A DNA stretch of 64,000 bases from Aureococcus anophagefferens (lineage: Eukaryota > Sar > Pelagophyceae > Pelagomonadales > Pelagomonadaceae): contig NW_008705572.1 in NCBI RefSeq assembly GCF_000186865.1, positions 207,384 to 271,383 on the forward strand. Direction: 5' to 3'. The position numbers and the translations under genes were made by a program. Below are positions 850 through 38,959 of the stretch, piece after piece. Within the stretch, counting starts at the first letter, position 1. The number at the start of each line of letters is the position of its first letter. The notes under the pieces were generated by a model, which did not search any database, was not told where the DNA came from, and saw nothing but the letters and a program-made list of their open reading frames with translations.

Positions 850-3800
850 CTAGTCGTCGGGCGACTCGGGGTCGTCGGCGTGCGCCGCGGCGGGGTCGGC
901 TTCTTCGTCCGGCAGCGCGACGGCGCCGGCCCAGAGGCGCTGCTCGTCGCAGTCGTGCGGCCCGCCGCCGCCGGCGGCGTCGCACCAGCGCGGCACGTTC
1001 GACGCGTGGCGGAGGACGACCTCCGCGCGGCAGAACTGGCAGAAGAGGCGCGGCGCGGACCGGCCCGACGTGAAGCCCGTCACGGCCTCGACGATGGTCG
1101 CGACGCCTCCGGTGATGTCGGCGGCGCTCATGTCGTCGATGGGCGCCGTCGACGGCCGCGCCGCGCGCGCGTCGACGCGCTGCTTCAGCGCGGCGATCTT
1201 CGCCGAGCCGAACTGCTCCGTCGGCGAGATGGCGCGCGTCTCGGTGAGGTGCGTGTGCCCTTTGCCGACCCAGAACTGCTTGAACTGGACGAAGGCGGCC
1301 TCGAGGCTCGCGGCGCCGCCCGTCGTGTCGTTGGCGCTCGTCTCGATGAAGACGCTGGCGTAGACCTTGGACACCGACGCGAACGCGGAGCCGTCGACCG
1401 TGGTCGTCTTCGCGTGCGACCCCTCGACGAAGGTCGCCCTCTCCGCCAAATCGAACGCCAGCTTGCCGCCCGCCGACGAGTAGCGGTGGATGGAGACGAC
1501 GGGGATCTTGAAGCCGACGCGGCTCGCCGCGCTCTCGCCCGGGTCGTGGAAGAGCAGGATGAACGGGCGGACCGCGGACTTGTACATGGTCATCGTCCAG
1601 TTCTCGCAGGCGACGTTCTTGATCTTGACGCTCACGACGAAGGTGTGCTTGCCGCCCTGGGCCGTCGACGCCGAGAGCACGCCCCGGACCGCCGCGTCGA
1701 CGTCCGCCAAGGACGGGCCCGTGATGTCGACGTTCGGCACCGTGGGGTCCTTGCACACGGGGATCATGAGCTCCGTCTCCTCCTCCGCCTTCTGGAGCCG
1801 GTCGGCGAGCTTCGTCGCCGCGGAGTGCGTGCCGTCCGGGAAGTACGCGCGGATGCCGAACCTGTTGAAGTACAGGCTGTACATCTTCGTCGCGAGGAGC
1901 GACGCGGCGCGCTCGACGCGCGACTTGGTCGCGTAGTTGCCGCCGAGGATGCCGATGTTCTTGACGTGGCAGAGCGACCGGATGTAGTGGCTCATCTCGC
2001 TGCCCTCCTCGCCGTGGGCGCGGACGCCGGGCGCGTCGCGCTCGACGAGCGGACCCAGGAGCCGCGGGTAGGCCGAGAGGAGGTGCCGCGCGCTCGTGAC
2101 CATGCGCGTGCCGCCGAACAGGAAGGCCACGAGCGAGTTCGCGCCGTAGGTGAAGATCGGGTTGATCTCCGCCGCCTTGCGGAACACGTCCGGCGAATGC
2201 ACGTACATGCACATGAGGCAGTTCCAGAGGAAGCCGAAGTGGACCCCGCACGCCTTTTGGAGCGCCTCCTGGCGCTCGGCGTCGTCGACGTCGATGTGCG
2301 CGACGAAGGCGTCGGCCAGGTCCTTGCAGCCGCGCGATCGCATGGCCACGTAGAAGAGCTCCCCGGCCTTGCACTTGGCGACGTAGCGGTCGTTGTACTT
2401 CGACTTGCCGAGGTTGAGGCTGAAGTTGGAACTCGTCCGGAACTCGGCCGTCACCGCCTCGGCCTTGGACGACCCCAGCAACGTCGCCCAGTCCGAGACG
2501 GCGCCCGCGATGACGCGCCCGGCGCAATGCATCGGCCCCTGGAAGGTCTCCGCGAAGGGCACGCCCGTGGGCGTGTTCCCGAGGACGGCCGCCGTGCCGT
2601 AGTCGCCGTCGCCGAGGTTCAGAGAACCGTCGTACGTCGAGAGCACGCCGTTGACGAGCAGCTGCGTGAGCCGCCGGTCCGCGGTGTTGCAGGGGTTGTC
2701 CGTGGGCGTCTTCTGGTCCGCGTGGTCGACGATCTCGAAGACGGCCTTCATGTCCGGCAGGAACAGCCGCCGCTTGAGCGTGATCGTCGCCGCCGGGTAG
2801 CCGAACTCGGCCGGGAACTCGAAGGGTTCGTCGAGGTCCGGGAGGAAAACGTCGCGGACCCACGACAGAATGTGGTCCCGCACCAACTTCCTCGACTCGG
2901 GCACGTTGTCGTACCGCACGTCCCAGCTGTTCTTCCAGTAGCTGCCGGCCTCCCGGAAGAACTCGAACAGAACCGACGTGACGACCTCGCCCAAATTCGC
3001 CTCGTCGACGCGCGACTCGGACTGCTCCGCCTGTGTGGAAATCAACCACTGGTCTGGGGGGTCCCCACCAAACTTCAGAACTCTCTATCTCGGTCAAATC
3101 GAAGTCGATTCGGCTGATTTTTGGACGAATCGATCGCTCTCGTTGAGTTCTCGAAGCACGGCAGAAAGCCTCGCGCCGAAAGGTTGAAGATTTGATTTCC
3201 ACACAGACGCCCGCGTGGTCGAGGTTCATCATGAACCAGAGCTCGCCGACGCCCTCCGGGAACCGCGCGTGGAAGTACTCCATGACGAACCGCCGGTCCA
3301 TCTCGTCCTTCATGAACTCCGTGAAGATGAAGCGCAAGGACAGCGTCGCCGTGGCGTGCGAGTCGCCTTGGCTCGACGTCTGGATGACGTCGAGCCAGCG
3401 CCGCTTCTCCTCGTCGTCCTCGAGCTCGTGGGCGCGGAGGAGGAAGCACCCGCTGGGGAGCGACGACCCGAGCACCTCGGCGACGGGCTTGGAGGCGACG
3501 GCGAGCTCGTCGACCGCGCGCTTCGACGGGAAGAGCATGCCCCGGAGCAGGATCATGAAGGACTCGATCTTGGGCTTGGCCACGGCGTGGAGCCGCGACG
3601 TGAGCACCCGGCGGTCGGCCTTGGCCTCCGGCGAGTCGCCGACGAAGTAGCCCACGACGTACGTGAGCATCGTGTTGACGATGCTGCCCACGTACCGCGC
3701 GACGTCCGGGTCCGTCGTGCCGACGTCGCTCGGCTCGACCGCCGGCGCCTCACCCACGGTCGCGCTCGCCGGCGTCTCGACCGGGCCGTCGGGGCGGTCC

Positions 3801-6916: not shown

Positions 6917-8233
6917 CTAGGTCACGGCGCGCTTCTTGGCGAACGTCGTCACCGCGACGCCGAGCGCGACGAGCGGCGAGAACGGGTCGCGGAAGTCGAG
7001 GCTGAAGCGAGACTTGGACATCTTGCCGAAGCGGAGGAAGACGCGGCCGTCCTCCTTGGTCGTCGTGCCCTCCTTGGTGCCCTCGACGGGCGGCGTCAGC
7101 AAAAAGTTCTTCTTCGACGCGCGCTTCGCGCGGCCGTTGAAGTTCAACGTCCACGCGTGGAGCTCGTCGTTCCAGACCTGCGACGACGACGGTGTCCGGG
7201 CGCAAAAAAACATCGAACGCCGTCGCACGAACCGGCTTCTTCGTGTGGAAGATGGCCATGTCGAGCATCTCGTCGCCCTCGAGCGCGCAGTACTCCTGCG
7301 TGCCCTCGTCGTCCTCGGCGTCGGCCTTCTTCACGTTGGAGAAGGACCGGCTCAGGCCGCCGGCCGTCGGCGTCGACGCGGCGATGCGGAGCGGCGCGTC
7401 GCCCGCGGATCCGCGGCGCGCGGCGACGAACTGCGCGGTGCGAGGGAACCAGCGCTTGAGGCGGCTCCCGCGGACGCGCGTCGTGTTCACCTTGGCGAAG
7501 CGCTCGGAGAGGGACGTGTCCGGCGAGTTCTCCTCCGTGACCTGGTCCGCGTGGAGCCGGGGCACGACGACCTGAAATAACTGGTTTGGGGGGTCCCCAC
7601 CAAACTTCGAAGTCGATTCGGCTGATTTTTGGACGAATCGATCGCTCTCGTCGAGTTCTCGAAGCACAGCCAAAAAGCTCGCGTCGAAACCGACGCACAT
7701 TGAAGTCGCGTCGAAGATTTGAGTTCCACACGGACGACGACCTTCATGGAGTTCGGCGCGCGGCCGGACACGTTCGTCTCGTAGACCGTGAGGCCGAGCT
7801 CGTGGGAGAAGCGCGCGGACATGGCGTCGTCCCAGCGGTGGTCCCGCACCACGAACTCCGTGCCGATGAAGTTGATGTCCATCATGCCGAGGTAGACCGC
7901 GCTGTCGGCCGCGGCGGGGATCGCGTCCATCGTCCGCAGGTGGCTGTCCGTCAGCGTGTGGAACTTGAAGGGGCCCTCCATGTCGCTCGCGCAGGAGCAG
8001 GCGAGGATGAAGGCGCCCGTGTCCTCGCGGTGCAGGTGGAAGGCCGTCACCTTCTCGCCGCGGTGCCGCTCGAGGCAGCAGTAGGCCATCTCCTCGCCCT
8101 CGTCCAGCGGCAGGTAGAACCTGAGGTTGTTGCGTGAGTTGTGTTATTTTGCGGGGACGCCGCGCGCGCGCCGCTCCTTCTCGCGGTGGATCGCCGTCCG
8201 CGCCTCGTCGACGCCGTCGCTGTAGGCCGCCAT
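6917..8233 (-). CDS. Tubby-like protein (TULP)
   Basis: Four exons (8233-8172, 8120-7742, 7571-7233, 7177-6917) give 346 residues with consistent phases. The C-terminal Tubby domain is recognisable: FILACSC, the INFIGTEFVVRD strand (family: NFIGKLRSN...FTVYD), VYETNVSGRAPNSMKVVVP (family: YETNVLGxKGPRKMxVIVP), and, after the last intron, VWNDELHAWTLNFNGRAKRASKKNF and ALGVAVTTFAKKRAVT (family VWN-LNFxGRVxxASVKNFQ and AFAIALSSF). Tubby domains bind PIP2 and in animals link to cilia and trafficking; the role here is inferred. The 55-bp intron (7232-7178) and the introner intron (7741-7572) both rejoin conserved Tubby residues, which supports them. The first intron (8171-8121, GC donor) is less certain. 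Confidence 0.88.
7572..7733 (-). mobile_element. Introner element, family A (copy 2), with perfect 8-bp TSD
   Basis: 162 bp flanked by ACGACGAC (7564-7571) and ACGACGAC (7734-7741), a perfect 8-bp duplication. The element shares the family A core (ATTCGGCTGATTTTTGGACG, CGATCGCTCTCG) but has lost part of one terminal repeat. On the coding (minus) strand the upstream TSD copy reads GTCGTCGT, so its first two bases give the GT donor; the element ends TTTCAG and gives the acceptor. Splicing restores MKVVVPRL in the Tubby domain, exactly the uninterrupted family sequence. Confidence 0.93.
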
Positions 8234-29100: not shown

Positions 29101-32100
29101 CTTGGCCGCGAACGCGTCGCTCGCCGACGCCGCGGACGACGCGCTCGAGGCCGCCTTCGCCGAGGACTCGCTCGACGCCGTCTGCCGCGCCGTGACGGCG
29201 TCGGCGGCGTCCGCGGGCGGCCGCAACGACACGGGCCGCCTCCTGGAGACGCTCGTGGACGCGCTCGTGAACGCGACGGCCAGGGCAGCACAAGAGAGCG
29301 AAATTCCCAACTTCAAAGGCTCCGATCTCGGCCGTTTTCCACTCGTTTTGGCTGATTTTTGGACGAGCGATCATCTCTCGGAACGGCCTCAAAGCGTGGA
29401 TGCTTTTTCCGGGACGCGCGCGCGGAACACTCACGTTGTAGCGACGTTGAATCACTCTTTTGCTGCCCAGGCGACGGCCGCCTACGTCGACGCGGACGAC
29501 CCGGAGCTCGTCGAGCAGGCCTGCGCGGCTTTGACGGGTGTCGCCGCGCAATCGTCGCTCGACCCGACGGGCGGCACGCCCCTGAAGACCCTGGGCCTCG
29601 TGCGCGGCCTCGCGGTCGCGTCCGCGGCCGAGGGCCTCGGCGGATCCGACACGACGACGCCGCGGTCCATCGCGTCCGTCGTCGACTCGCTCCTCGAGAC
29701 CGTCCTGTTCCTCGAGGATGCGCCAGTCGCCAACGCGTCGTCGAACGCGTCGGCGGCGGCGGCGCTGCTCCTCGAGACGGTCGACGCGCTCGCGGTCGCG
29801 CAGCTGGAGACGCTCGCCGTCGACGAGGACAGCGTCGGCGAGACCTTTGCCAACTTCGCGACGGCGAACCGGCGCGTGCTCCGGTCCGCGGACGAGTCCC
29901 GGTTCCTGGGCACGGCGACGATGAACGCGTCCGCGACCCTGCGGCCGCTCGCGTCTTTGGGCGACGTCGCGTCGTCGGTCTACATGACGCTGTCGGAGTT
30001 CGCCGTCGACCCCTACGGCGCGTCGAGCGACGCCGGCGCGAGCACGCTCCGCTTCCTCGCCTCCGACGGCGCCGCGACCCGCCGGCGGCTCGCCGGGGCG
30101 TCGACGAACCTCACGGTCGCGCTGTCGGTGCCGTCGGGCGACTACGGCGAGACGGCCGCGGCGTCGCGCGCGCCCGCGCGCGTCCGGAGCGTCGCGAACG
30201 TGACTTGCCCCTGCGGCTACTACGGCAACGTCACGGCGGACTGCGGGCCCTACCGCAACGCGACCGTGTTTTACTGCGACGGCGTCCCCGGCGAGTACGC
30301 GGTGTCGTGCCCGCTGTTGGAGACGGGCGTCTGCGCCATCTACGACGGTTTCGACTTCGCGCCGGCCTGCGAGACGTCCGTCGTCGACGGGACGACGATG
30401 TGCACCTGCGACCTCGCGACGGGAGAAGCGGCGGACGCGTCGCTGCGGTCGCGGCTGTTGGCGATGGCGTCGACGTACGCGGACGTGCTCGCGGCCGAGC
30501 CCGACTTCGCGCGCGCGGCGGTCATGCTCGTCGCGCTGGGCGCCGCGGCGCTGGGCTGCGTCGCCGCCGTCGCCTGGGGCCGGCGCCTCGACCGGTTGGA
30601 CGCGCGGGAGGACTCGTGGAAACGCGAGTCCGCGCGGCCGACGCTGAGCCGCCAGCAGACGCTGGGCCGCACGGGGCCCTTCTACCGCCAGACGACCTGG
30701 GACCGCTGCTCCTACGCGCTGCTGACGCGGCACCCCGTGCTCAGCTTCTACGCGGTGCACCGGCCCGGCGCGCCCCGCGGCGCGCGGGCCGTCCTCGTCT
30801 TCTTCGAGATTTTGGTTTTCATGTTCTGCTCGGCCCTCGAGAGCAATTTAGAGTTCCCCGAGCCCCGGGGCGGCTGCGGGTCCTACGACAGTGAGCACGA
30901 CTGCGTGGAGGGGACGCGCGTCTACGCGCTCGACAAGTCGACGATCCGCGCGCTCTGGTCCGCGTCCGCGCGCGACTCCTTGACGAAGCCGGCCTGCGCC
31001 TGGGACCTCTGCTCCCAGACCTGCGGCGCCATCGAGCCCGGCGACGGCTACTCGACGTCCTACCGGCGCTTCGTCTTCCTCGCGCTCACGCTCGCGGTGT
31101 CGTTCCCGCTGTGCGCGCTCTTCGAGCGCCTCTTCGAGGCCTACGTGCTCGGGCCCGTGCCGGAGGCGGTCCGCGCGCGGTTTCCGCGGCTCGCGAGGCT
31201 CTGCTGCGCCGCCGAGGGCGAGGCGGAGGCGAGCGTCGCTCCGGACGTCGAGGGCGCGCCGGACGACGAGGACCGCGGCGCGCCGCCGGCGCCGGATTTC
31301 GCCTCCTGCGCGTGCTTCGGCGCGGCGGACGCGTCGTGCCTCGCGCGCGGCGCCAGCGCGGACGACGCCGCCCCCGCCGCCGCCGCCGAGGAGTCGCTCG
31401 AGGCGGTCCTCGGCCTCGACAAGGAAGCGTCGCAGCACGCGCCGGTCGACGACGAGGTTCCAGAGGCGGCGCCCCGGCCGCCGGTCGAGAAGGAGGCGCG
31501 GCCGCCGCTGCCGCCGCTCGACTCGGAGCTCGAGCTGGCGCCGCCGGACGGCGCGGCCGCGCACCCCTTCGCGGCCATCGTCGAGCAGATCGAGCAACCC
31601 GCGTCCCTCGCGGCGCTGCCGACGCCGAAGCCGCCGGTCTACGGGAGCCCGGGCCCGACCGTCGAGGAACGGGGCCCGGAGGACGACGTCGCGCTTTTGG
31701 TCGAGGACGGCGACGGCGTGATGGAAAAGAAGACGACGGTGCCCAAGGCCCTCCAGAAGACGCTCTTCGACGAGAAGACGGCGGACACGCTCCAGTGGAT
31801 GCCGAGCGCGACCTGGGAGGACGACGTCGGCGACGGGTCGCGGAGTTTAGGCGACGAATCCTCGACGGGCCGGCGGCGCCGGGGCACGATGCAGGCGGCG
31901 AAGCGGCGGTCGACCGACGCGGCGCGGGCCCTGGCCCAGTACCACTACACGGTCAAGGCCGCCGTGACCATGGACCAGCGCCGCGCGGAGCGCTACGCGC
32001 TGTCGTCTCAGCTCGCCGCGCCCGTCGCGCGCGGCGTCGCGGCGCAGCTCCGCGAGCTCGACGACCTGTTGGCGGCCCTGGAGGCGCGGCGCGACGCGCG

Positions 32101-33366
32101 GGCGCGGGACGCGCGGATCATGGTCGGCAAGTACCGCGAGCGGCTCCTGCGGCGCTGGGGATGGGACGCGGGCACGGACGAGTACGGCTCCGACGCCGCG
32201 TGGCGCGTGGAGCTGCGGCTGCGCCACCACATGAAGGACGCGGACCGCTGGCACGACCGCCTGGTGGACCTGCGCGCGCGCTGCGACGACGACCGGGCCT
32301 ACCTCTTCAACGCGCAGGCCTGTGAGGAAATCAACCACTGGTTTGGGACGTCCCGACCAAACTTTGAAATTCTCTAGCTCGGTCAAATCGAAGTTGATTC
32401 GGCTGATTTTTGGACGAATCGATCGCTCTCGTTGAGTTCTCGAAGCACGGTTGAAGTGGATGGTCCGAACCGTTCGATTACGCGCACATTGAAGTCGGGT
32501 TGAAGATTTTTATTTCCACACAGGCGCAGGCCGAGCTCGTCGAGTGCGAGCGGTGCAGCCGCCTCTCGAAGCCCGAGCGCCGCATCGTCGAGCGGTCCGC
32601 GGGCTACATCGATCGGAGCGGCGACGACGACGACGGCGACGGCGACGTGTCCGCGGCGGCCTATCTCGGCGCCTGGGCGGGCATCGCGGCGATTTTAGCG
32701 GTCTTCTGCTGGTATTTGATCGCGACGGGTTCGGATTTGGGCCGCGCGGCGACGGTCGCGTGGCTCGGCGACGCGGCCGTCGGCGCGCTGCTCTACTTTT
32801 GCGTCGTGCTGCCCTGCGCGATTTTATTGTTCGGGGTCTGGTTCCCGTCGCTGGTCGTCGGGCGCTTCCGCGCGGCGGACGACCGGCAGCGGCCGTTCCC
32901 CTTCAAGACGAAGCTGCCCGACTCCGCGGCGTATTTTTTACTGAAAGGCCACCCGGAGCTGCACGACCTGCCCGCGGCCAAGTCCATCCTCCACCCGCCG
33001 ACGGCGTCCATCGACGACGTCGTCGGCGACCCCGCGGCCATCTACGAGCAGATCAAGTGGCGCTACCCGCTGTCGACGCAGATCGGCATCGGCGTCGCGA
33101 TCCTCTTCCTGAACATCCCCGAGCTGCCCCTGGACGTGCTCTTCGAGGAGATCTTCGTGCTGCTCCCGCTGGCCACGGGCCTCGTCGTGCCCCACGTGGG
33201 AGGCAGCTCCGTCGCCGCGGAGCTCGCGAACGCGCTCGTGGACCTGCTCGCGTCCGTCGCCGCGGTCCTCGCCTTCTGCGCCGTCGTCTTCGCGGGGGCC
33301 CAGACGACGGACTTCCTCGAGCGCCAGGGGCGGCGGGTTTGGAAGGCCCTAAGGAGCCTAGTCTGA
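20106..33366 (+). CDS. Giant cell-surface protein: FG-GAP/VCBS repeats, REJ-like region, polycystin-like membrane part
   Basis: Four exons (20106-20752, 20806-29272, 29471-32311, 32524-33366) give 4,265 residues. The signal peptide is MRRYCAAAALLLVATRA. Residues ~20-1025 hold 20 repeats like DVDGDGDVDALSAS...DDTVAWYENDGSQSFTERV (FG-GAP/VCBS, Ca-binding DxDGDGD). After APTAAPTTTAAP linkers, a second FG-GAP block lies at ~1095-1480, then Ser/Pro/Thr stalks and Ig-like strands. A REJ/PKD-like part at ~2500-3030 (SGVVAASPASGTAMATAF...LPLRYEFSTASG) is followed by a GAIN/GPS-like Cys-rich region and several membrane segments from ~3380 to the end. The order suggests a polycystin-1/REJ-type receptor with an adhesion ectodomain. 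The 53-bp intron 20753-20805 and two introners (29273-29470, 32312-32523) all rejoin the frame exactly. Confidence 0.85.
20170..23235 (+). repeat. 147-bp tandem coding repeats (49 aa), 20 units
   Basis: Each unit contains ATCGACGTCGACGGCGACGG and ACACGGTCGCGTGGTACGAG. In the middle of the array, matching points fall at 22267, 22414, 22561, 22708 and 22855, a spacing of exactly 147 bp. Outer units vary in length. High DNA identity between units suggests recent amplification or conversion. Confidence 0.92.
29281..29470 (+). mobile_element. Introner element, family B (copy 1), in giant gene
   Basis: 190 bp flanked by GCGACGGC at 29273-29280 and 29471-29478 (perfect TSD). Terminal repeats are CAGGGCAGCACAAGAG and CTCTTTTGCTGCCCAG (2 mismatches when inverted). 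It shares GCGAAATTCCCAACTTCAAA and GGCTGATTTTTGGACGAGCG with the copy at 37796. TSD plus element is 198 bp with no in-frame stop, so the frame also reads through. Splicing with GC donor and AG acceptor gives LVNATAAYVDADD. Confidence 0.92.
32320..32523 (+). mobile_element. Introner element, family A (copy 3), in giant gene
   Basis: 204 bp with TSD GCGCAGGC at 32312-32319 and 32524-32531 (perfect). Ends CTGTGAGGAAAT and ATTTCCACACAG form the terminal inverted repeat. The intron 32312-32523 needs a GC donor; it shifts frame by two bases and an in-frame TAG lies inside, so splicing is required to reach the last 281 codons with four membrane segments. The tempting GTGAGG donor at 32322 would break the frame. 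Confidence 0.93.
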
Positions 33367-36984: not shown

Positions 36985-38959
36985 ATGGTAGCGCGCTCCA
37001 CGTCTCGCAAGAGTGGCAAGTCAGGCGCGCCGACGAGCGCGAGCGACGACGCGACCGCTGCGGCTGCCGCGGCAAAAGTCGCGCACGCCAGGGCGCTCGC
37101 CACGGCGCGCAGACGCCGCTTCGACGAGCGCCAGAAGGAGCTGCTTCTCGTCAAGGGCGACGACGTGGGCGACGAGGTCTTCAAGGCGCGCGAGCGCGCT
37201 GCGCTGCGTCGCGCGCGGGACGTCTGCCGCAAGAAGCAGGTGCGCGAGGAGCAGCGCGTCGAGTTCGAGGAGCAGCGCGAGGCCGCAAAGGTGGCAGAGG
37301 CCGCCGCGTCCAAGGAGCGCGCCGCGGCGAAGCAGGCCCGGGCCGCCGCGTCCAAGGAGCGCGCCGCGGCGAAGCAGGCCAAGGCCGTCGCCGCGACGGC
37401 GCGGGCCGAGGCGGAGAAGGCCAGGGCTGCCGAGCTCGAGGAGCGCGAGGCGCGGGAAGAGGAGACGGCGCGCCGCGTTGCCGCCGAGGAGAAGCTCGCG
37501 GCGCTCGACGACGGCAGCGACGACGACGATGGTAGCGACGGCGACGGCGGCGACGACGACATGAGCGACTACGACAGCGAGGACGACGACAAGGCGACGG
37601 CGACGGCGGCGCTGCGCGCGATTGTAAAATCGTTAAAACATCCTCGACGCGGCGTCCTCACGAGCGCCGACGTGCGCGCCATCGCCCGTCGCGCGCGGCG
37701 CAACGGCGGTGCCGTGGTCGTGTCCGACTGCGACGGCATCGGCGTGCTGCGGTTCGTGCTCAACCTGCTCAAAATTCGTGTGAAAAAGTACGTCGCGGGG
37801 CGGCAAAAGAGAGCGAAATTCCCAACTTCAAAGGCTCCTTTCTCGACCGGTTTCCACTCGTTTCGGCTGATTTTTGGACGAGCGATCATCTCTCGGCACG
37901 GTCTCGGAGCGTGGATGCTTTTTTTGGAACGTTGAGTCACTCTGTTGCTGCCCAGGTACGTCGCGGTGGAGATTTCGGACGTCGCCTTCGAGGCGATGCT
38001 CGCGAACAACGGCGACTTCGAGGGCGAGATCGTCCGCGTCAAGGATGTCTGCGACTACAAGTCCCTGCTCGAGGCCCTGGGCGACGACGCGATCGACATC
38101 TACGTCGCCGGTCCCCCGTGTAACGACCTCGCCGGGTCAAACCCGCGCCGCGAGGTGCGGCGCGCGCTCGCGGCGCGCGATCCAGCCCTTCGCCGTTCCC
38201 TCGCAGGTCAACGACGTGCGCAAGACGAAGACGTCAAAGTTGGTGGTCCAGGTCGGCAAGCGGATCAAGCTGCTGCAGAAGAGACAAAAAACCAAAAAAT
38301 TCATCACACTCGTAGAAAACGCACCATACGACGTCTCTAGTTATTTTTATTTAACTTCCGGCCTTAGGTGGCTTCGATGTCGAAGAAGATCAGGCGGCAG
38401 TTCGAGAGCATCGTGCAGAACGGAGCCGCCGTCGTCGCCGACGAGCTCGTCCACGGCGGCGCGCCGCGCCGCCGGCTTTATTGGGGAAATTTTGTGACGC
38501 CGGAGGCGCCGAAGGCGCCGCGGTCGCCCATCGACCTGGGCAAGTTCCTGAAGAAGTTCAAGGGGAGCGCGGACCGGCGTCTTTTGTCGGACTCACGCCG
38601 GCGTCTTTTAGTCGGACTCGGAGCCGTTCTCCCGCGCAGGCACGGCGATCCCCGCGGTGCCGGGCCAGAAGGTGGGGACGGTCCGCGTGCTCACCGCGCG
38701 CGCGGCCTCGGCCGACTACGAGCACGCGCGGAAGTCGCACAGGTCGCCCAACTTCGTGCGCATCTCGCGCCACTCGGACAGGCTCCGACCCTTGCACGCG
38801 GACGAGCTCTCCGTGCTCCTCAACCTTCCGGCCCGCTACGGGCTGAACATGAACGCGTCGCCGACGGAAACGGCCTACCTGCTCGGCTCGACCTTCGGGG
38901 TCAAGTCCCTCGCGTGGGCGTTGGCGCCGAGCCTCGAGCACTTCCCCCGCCTCGGCTAA
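36985..38959 (+). CDS. DNMT3-like cytosine-5 DNA methyltransferase
   Basis: Five exons (36985-37787, 37956-38154, 38207-38320, 38368-38566, 38640-38959) give 544 residues. The N-terminal ~210 residues are a Lys/Arg/Ala/Glu coiled coil and an acidic DDGSDDDDGSD stretch; no PWWP or ADD domain. Catalytic motifs in order: I (VVVSDCDGIGVLRFVL), IV (GPPCNDLAGSNPRRE; the Cys is the nucleophile; DNMT3 has SPCNDLSxVNPAR), VI (FITLVEN), VIII (PRRRLYWGN), and IX/X (LNLPARYG, LLGSTFGVKSLAWAL). The likely role is CpG methylation in the nucleus. Two introns are introners (37788-37955, 38567-38639); the 38321-38367 intron has a GC donor right after VEN. The 38155 donor is less sure (GC at 38131 is an alternative). 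Confidence 0.83.
37796..37955 (+). mobile_element. Introner element, family B (copy 2), in the methyltransferase gene
   Basis: 160 bp with TSD GTACGTCG at 37788-37795 and 37956-37963 (perfect; three more flanking bases match by chance). Terminal repeats CGGGGCGGCAAAAGAG and CTCTGTTGCTGCCCAG. The TSD itself forms an excellent donor, GTACGT. Splicing gives VKKYVAVEISD between motifs I and IV. An in-frame TGA lies inside the element. Confidence 0.94.
38575..38639 (+). mobile_element. Probable decayed family C introner in the methyltransferase gene
   Basis: 65 bp starting CGGCGTCTTTTGTCGG and containing a second near-copy of that 16-mer (38599-38615). The flanking 8-mers GCGCGGAC and GCACGGCG match at 5 of 8. 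The intron 38567-38639 (GC donor, CGCAG acceptor) joins FKG-S-TAIPAVPGQKVG in phase 1. Confidence 0.6.

Follow-up and report, generated by a model that had tools for sequence, protein, structure and literature searches.

Family A introners of Aureococcus anophagefferens: short transposon-like elements that probably become introns by co-opting a donor from the duplicated target

The window analysed here, a 64,000-nt stretch of the Aureococcus anophagefferens genome with a G+C content of ~71%, contains three copies of a repeated element, family A, each inside a gene (Table 1). In their main alignments the copies are 89-91% identical to the family A consensus, and they lie where a first-pass annotation of the sequence had placed them. 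That annotation had also described ends common to all three: the ends it quoted are exact on both sides of copy 1, but copy 3 starts differently, with CTGTGAGGAAAT, and the ends of copy 2 have decayed (CTGAAATAACTGG / AGTTCCACACGG), leaving this element ~41 bp short. The two perfect 8-bp target duplications it reported are indeed present, as ACGACGAC around copy 2 and GCGCAGGC around copy 3; the duplication of copy 1 is degraded, with 4 of 8 bases matching. With the core taken as forward, copy 3 has the same sense as its gene, whereas copies 1 and 2 run antisense to theirs.

Table 1. Family A elements in the window, their flanking duplications and the neighbouring Tubby-gene intron.
Feature	Position	Strand	Remarks
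Family A element, copy 1	3031..3206 (176 bp)	-	inside - strand gene
Copy 1 donor-side duplication copy, degraded	3207..3214	-	coding GCGGGCGT vs GCGGAGCA at 3023-3030; inferred GC donor
Family A element, copy 2	7572..7733 (162 bp, decayed ends)	-	Tubby-domain gene
Copy 2 donor-side duplication copy	7734..7741	-	coding GTCGTCGT; inferred GT donor
Copy 2 acceptor-side duplication copy	7564..7571	-	opening bases of following exon
Family A element, copy 3	32320..32523 (204 bp)	+	long gene, FG-GAP repeats and REJ domain
Copy 3 donor-side duplication copy	32312..32319	+	GCGCAGGC; inferred GC donor
Copy 3 acceptor-side duplication copy	32524..32531	+	opening bases of following exon
Next Tubby-gene intron	7178..7232 (55 nt)	-	P0001 and P0002 read through

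The first-pass annotation took each copy to be exactly an intron. The copies do have the character of introns by sequence, but the predicted intron is the element together with one copy of the duplication, which gives lengths of 184, 170 and 212 nt for copies 1 to 3, none of them a multiple of three. Joining the exons on this basis yields ..FMMNLDH/AEQSES.. for copy 1 (the slash marks the junction), ..APNSMK/VVVPRLHAD.. within the Tub domain for copy 2, and ..RAYLFN/AQAELVE.. for copy 3. The joined Tubby protein scored 40.7 bits against Tub, compared with 28.7 bits for the first exon alone.

We searched the genome (49 Mb, 86 contigs) with exact patterns, which miss copies with variant ends or core. 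The 23-mer core occurred 101 times, the 14-mer end GATTTCCACACAGG occurred 571 times, and perfect 15-bp ends paired 160-190 nt apart were present at 190 places; the reversed controls each gave 0. The copy number of family A is far above that expected by chance. The exact core and paired-end patterns were absent from the viral contigs searched, a set that may omit records near this genome. The inverted end of the consensus is 15 bp long (CTGTGTGGAAATCAA), and the typical element length is 203 bp, found exactly in 51 of 78 end-defined copies taken from 88 loci and the window. The target duplication matched at 8/8 positions in 53 of these copies and at 7/8 in 16. These 69 copies were used for tests of frame, donor and orientation, and the nine with poorer duplications (<7/8), window copy 1 among them, were left out; the decayed end of window copy 2 kept it out of the 78. 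Thirty of the 88 loci (L059-L088) had been chosen by an end pattern containing the AG and the following G, which favours intact ends; we therefore also used a core-anchored subset that is unbiased on ends, comprising 50 loci, 42 end-defined copies and 38 copies with good duplications. The copies L019, L020 and L044 are letter-identical at three loci with three different duplications, which indicates that family A moved recently.

A second introner family was seen in the window at 37796-37955 and from ~29285, ~70-72% like family A over 92 core columns. The copy at 37796-37955 has the same design as family A, with an 8-bp duplication (GTACGTCG at 37788-37795/37956-37963) and an end reading ..TTGCTGCCCAG; a 4148-aa ORF continues in frame through the other copy, near 29285.

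To assess coding continuity across family A copies, a codon score trained on 15 open frames of the window was applied to both 240-bp flanks of each of the 69 copies. Among the 69 of 78 end-defined copies with a 7-8/8 duplication, removal of the element and one duplication copy left the frame continuous in 65 (37/38 core-anchored). The four failures (L049, L078, L007:1498 and L008:2911) each have a weak coding signal, with a margin of ~11 or less, in at least one flank; L008:2911 fails the GT/GC test described below as well, and one of its flanks is only ~50 bp long. The joined flanks were free of stops in 58 of the 65 frame-passing copies, with a stop within the 240 bp viewed in the other 7. 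If the element were retained, the frame would be broken or run into a stop in 65/65, and would stay open and in frame in 0/65. The tally of 65 precise removals, with none at +1 or +2, arises partly by construction, as only the 65 of 69 copies that pass the frame test entered the tests of phase, composition and AG.

Read on the inferred coding strand, the first two bases of the duplication are GT or GC in 68/69 copies (38/38 core-anchored), compared with a background of 0.19 of positions in coding sequence. All 53 exact duplications start with GT/GC or end in RC, and only 12 do both (27/27 and 5, respectively, in the core-anchored subset); because the constraint falls on one strand, we take it to show that spliceable insertions survived, rather than that the integrase prefers such sites. 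The donors comprise 46 GC, 22 GT and 1 AA. Among the frame-passing copies 43/65 are GC, against 74% expected from GT/GC in the coding sequence of the window (p 0.20), and the core-anchored count is 29/38. Donors are mostly GC, as base composition predicts, and the bases beside the donor, judged by eye, resemble background. Elements lie in both orientations relative to the gene (34:35; core-anchored 20:18), which fits insertion as DNA and speaks against reverse splicing.

As the two ends of the element have the same sequence, their decay is comparable. The AG was intact at the coding 3' end in 65/65 copies and at the mirror end in 46/65 (p 8e-7), with 37/37 and 26/37 in the core-anchored subset (p 4e-4); these Fisher tests assume independent copies, and related copies are not fully independent. 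The difference lies almost wholly at the A, while the remaining 14 positions decay alike. This pattern of decay independently supports use of the coding-side AG as the acceptor. At the mirror, non-acceptor end, CGG replaces CAG in 15/65 copies, and these CGG-ended copies are perhaps a subfamily that makes introns in one orientation only.

We consider family A to be a MITE-like introner, and assign a probability of about 0.95 to the full mechanism of insertion, 8-bp duplication, donor co-option and precise splicing. Family A would be a non-autonomous cut-and-paste DNA transposon, mobilised in trans by a putative transposase, that inserts into coding DNA either way round, with an 8-bp duplication of the target. 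Read outward, both inverted ends finish ..TTTCCACACAG, and could thus supply the element's own 3' splice site in both orientations, abutting the second duplication copy exactly. As 5' splice site, a GT or GC present by chance at the start of the first duplication copy would serve. Splicing would then remove the element and exactly one duplication copy, restoring the original message, and genic insertions without GT/GC at that place would presumably be lost. The claim in the first-pass annotation of intron gain by a transposon-like element gains support from the duplications, the use of both orientations, frame restoration, the coding-strand GT/GC and the retention of the coding-side AG.

Other explanations of these copies have to be weighed against this mechanism. 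Spread through RNA, in which excised introns enter other messages by reverse splicing and reach the genome through a DNA copy and recombination, would suit copies that are introns by sequence and located in coding exons. However, reverse splicing gives the sense direction only, against the observed 34:35, and it predicts neither inverted ends nor an 8-bp duplication, which is exact in 53/78 copies; we regard this route as extremely improbable. Equally improbable is the proposal that these are ordinary genic MITEs, retained in the message and either tolerated or confined to pseudogenes. Inverted ends and duplications are features of MITEs, and the support for splicing here is drawn from sequence, but retention would disrupt the frame or meet a stop in every one of the 65 copies, and both the coding-strand GT/GC (68/69) and the one-sided AG (65/65 vs 46/65) would be purposeless without splicing.

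Two further explanations accept splicing and differ on how the splice sites are defined. The element end contains GTGTGG/GTGAGG, which could act as an internal donor (CT/GTGTGG..) that leaves extra bases in the message, as PMC9860276 reports for one Aureococcus sp. family. Use of this donor should leave 10 extra nt and shift the frame, whereas 65/69 copies fit exact removal, and in those 65 the frame does not accommodate an additional 1 or 2 nt (partly by construction); it would also leave the GT/GC at the start of the duplication unexplained, and we judge it very improbable. A less remote, though still unlikely, explanation is that an RNA hairpin of the inverted ends joins donor and acceptor and, in addition to the base signals, is required for splicing, so that any GT/GC becomes usable. 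The ends are perfectly complementary in the consensus, 911/975 end pairs in 65 copies are still able to pair, and the donor has no clear signal past GT/GC. Transposition alone predicts pairing ends, however, and the ends have decayed about as much as the interior (0.097 and 0.137 vs 0.132 in 50 core-anchored loci). Copy 2 lacks its pairing ends, and the initial 146 nt of copy 3 folded no better than shuffled sequences (z 0.27).

Mobilisation in trans would require a transposase elsewhere. Among the candidates examined in the genome, we found no autonomous partner with family A ends. Searches for hAT transposase (PF05699) and KDZ (PF18758) gave 0 matches in the genome, and a search for U1 RNA by Rfam gave none; the control was silent in each case as well (0/14 genomes for hAT). 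P elements make 8-bp duplications, and P-like transposases are present in this genome, one at C25 and a relative in two copies close to contig ends, on C2 and C11. These two copies, L105 and L106, are 99.9% identical over 5.2 kb and contain an open 563-aa frame related to the L089/L090 transposase, with ~55-bp inverted repeats on both sides of L105 and on one side only of L106. Family A and these elements are both DNA transposons of the same genome with inverted repeats (long in L105/L106), but their terminal repeats differ: the inverted repeat of the P-like element begins AAGGGGATCTTCAAGTATC, not CTGTGTGG, and we rejected it as the autonomous partner of family A. No introner-like end (<=4 mismatches in 15) was found in L105/L106, and the portion of L089/L090 that was read gave only weak matches to introner ends. 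Terminal repeats in common with a P-like autonomous element, which would place family A in the P-element superfamily, were thus not seen with L105. End variants with other subterminal bases, at 12 places, were considered as possible partners and set aside as ordinary copies, all with a partner end 147-208 bp away and duplications matching at 5-8 of 8 positions.

The P-element-like frame (PF21787) of L089/L090 (G000 C25:177958-179133) has 7 in-frame TAG codons against 5 CAG and 1 CAA in 392 codons, with no TGA or TAA. On the 3' side of this frame, by eye, lies intron-like sequence that contains an introner-like core; AT-rich sequence with TAA/TAG at glutamine-like places comes next. All three stop codons terminate long ORFs in the window. 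The in-frame stops of L089/L090 may reflect decay or a foreign code.

The genes that hold copies 1 and 3 have counterparts among public A. anophagefferens proteins, with best blocks 96-98% identical, which points to that species or a very close relative as the host. P0013 has 18 differences in the ~501 aligned residues of its main block, gaps set aside (96%), and for P0016 the identity over 115 residues is 98%. In the remaining blocks of both proteins, where the gene models apparently part ways, identity is 77-89%. The strain behind P0016 carries copy 3, since this protein reads into the introner there. The P0013 and P0016 models run into or around the introner (..DHAGVC/AGSYW.., ..AQACEEIDQTL..). 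Introner introns appear to be misplaced in public gene models of A. anophagefferens, which affects the annotation of this organism.

At the Tubby site, 4 of 12 database proteins (P0003, P0006, P0007 and P0008) read straight into the introner, at exactly the point predicted here, and NSMKVVVPR is continuous in P0001, P0002, P0004, P0005 and P0009. P0001 (longest contig, 6,605 bases) and P0002 cross the site unbroken (..NSMKVVVPRLHAD..), and both run into the next Tubby intron. Because they read into that intron, these two look like unspliced DNA and suggest, at the level of sequence, element-free alleles in very close strains; alternatively, they may represent transcripts in which the same intron was retained. 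P0014 and P0015 also lack the copy-3 intron and could be cDNA. The first-pass annotation had made element-free alleles part of the test of its claim, and at the protein level such sequences were found for the Tubby site. A literature search, covering few subscription papers, found no report of segregating introners in A. anophagefferens.

The introners of this species are reportedly short non-autonomous DNA transposons that carry one splice site, take the other from the duplicated target and are perfectly spliced, as Huff, Zilberman and Roy are said to have described in Nature in 2016. Family A matches them in mechanism and host and is therefore already known; our addition is the quantitative data. 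The first-pass annotation had likewise pointed to introners in Aureococcus, and since the host is the species in which they were described, the claim to novelty is toned down. By sequence, family A has the characters of introners of the Aureococcus type: many intron-placed copies, inverted ends with an 8-bp duplication, a co-opted splice site and a length of ~210 bp. Insertion between nucleosomes is a further trait reported for introners of that type. The intron length of ~210 bp quoted for A. anophagefferens introners in PMC9481584 compares with 203 + 8 = 211 here. PMC7789003 describes A. anophagefferens elements with direct and inverted repeats of constant length, which family A has in common, and with canonical splicing motifs, in contrast to the mostly GC donors found here. 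In the classification of Gozashti et al. 2022 (PMC9860276), as given in the legend to their Fig. 2B, family A fits the class with an element-borne 3' site and a duplication-derived 5' site. Family 4 of Aureococcus sp., an example in that paper, carries both sites on the element and adds 12 nt, whereas family A adds none. The same authors describe GC donors as rare, at 0 to 50.0% per family, a lower share than the 46/69 of family A.

Iwata and Gotoh (PMC3033335) reported that 39.6% of introns in A. anophagefferens are GC-AG although the U1 5' end is canonical, and called their origin an 'enigma'. Co-option of donors from GC-rich targets would explain this proportion, although the remark on canonical splicing motifs in PMC7789003 counts against that explanation. 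We also entertain, at slightly less than even odds, a broader reading in which an intron start needs only G and a pyrimidine, GC being as good as GT and the neighbouring bases no different from background; the 15-bp end would be a portable acceptor either way, the 39.6% would record the landing of introners in GC-rich coding sequence, and certain of them would still be segregating in natural populations as alleles with and without the intron.

How introns are gained is a long-standing question, and the evidence for introners as a source of new introns on a large scale is good. The copies in the window show this known process unusually clearly, and family A offers clean tests of it in its equal orientations, its selection on the coding side only and its apparently segregating insertions. 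If the donor is inherited from the GC-rich target, family A would provide an answer to the GC-AG puzzle posed by Iwata and Gotoh (PMC3033335).
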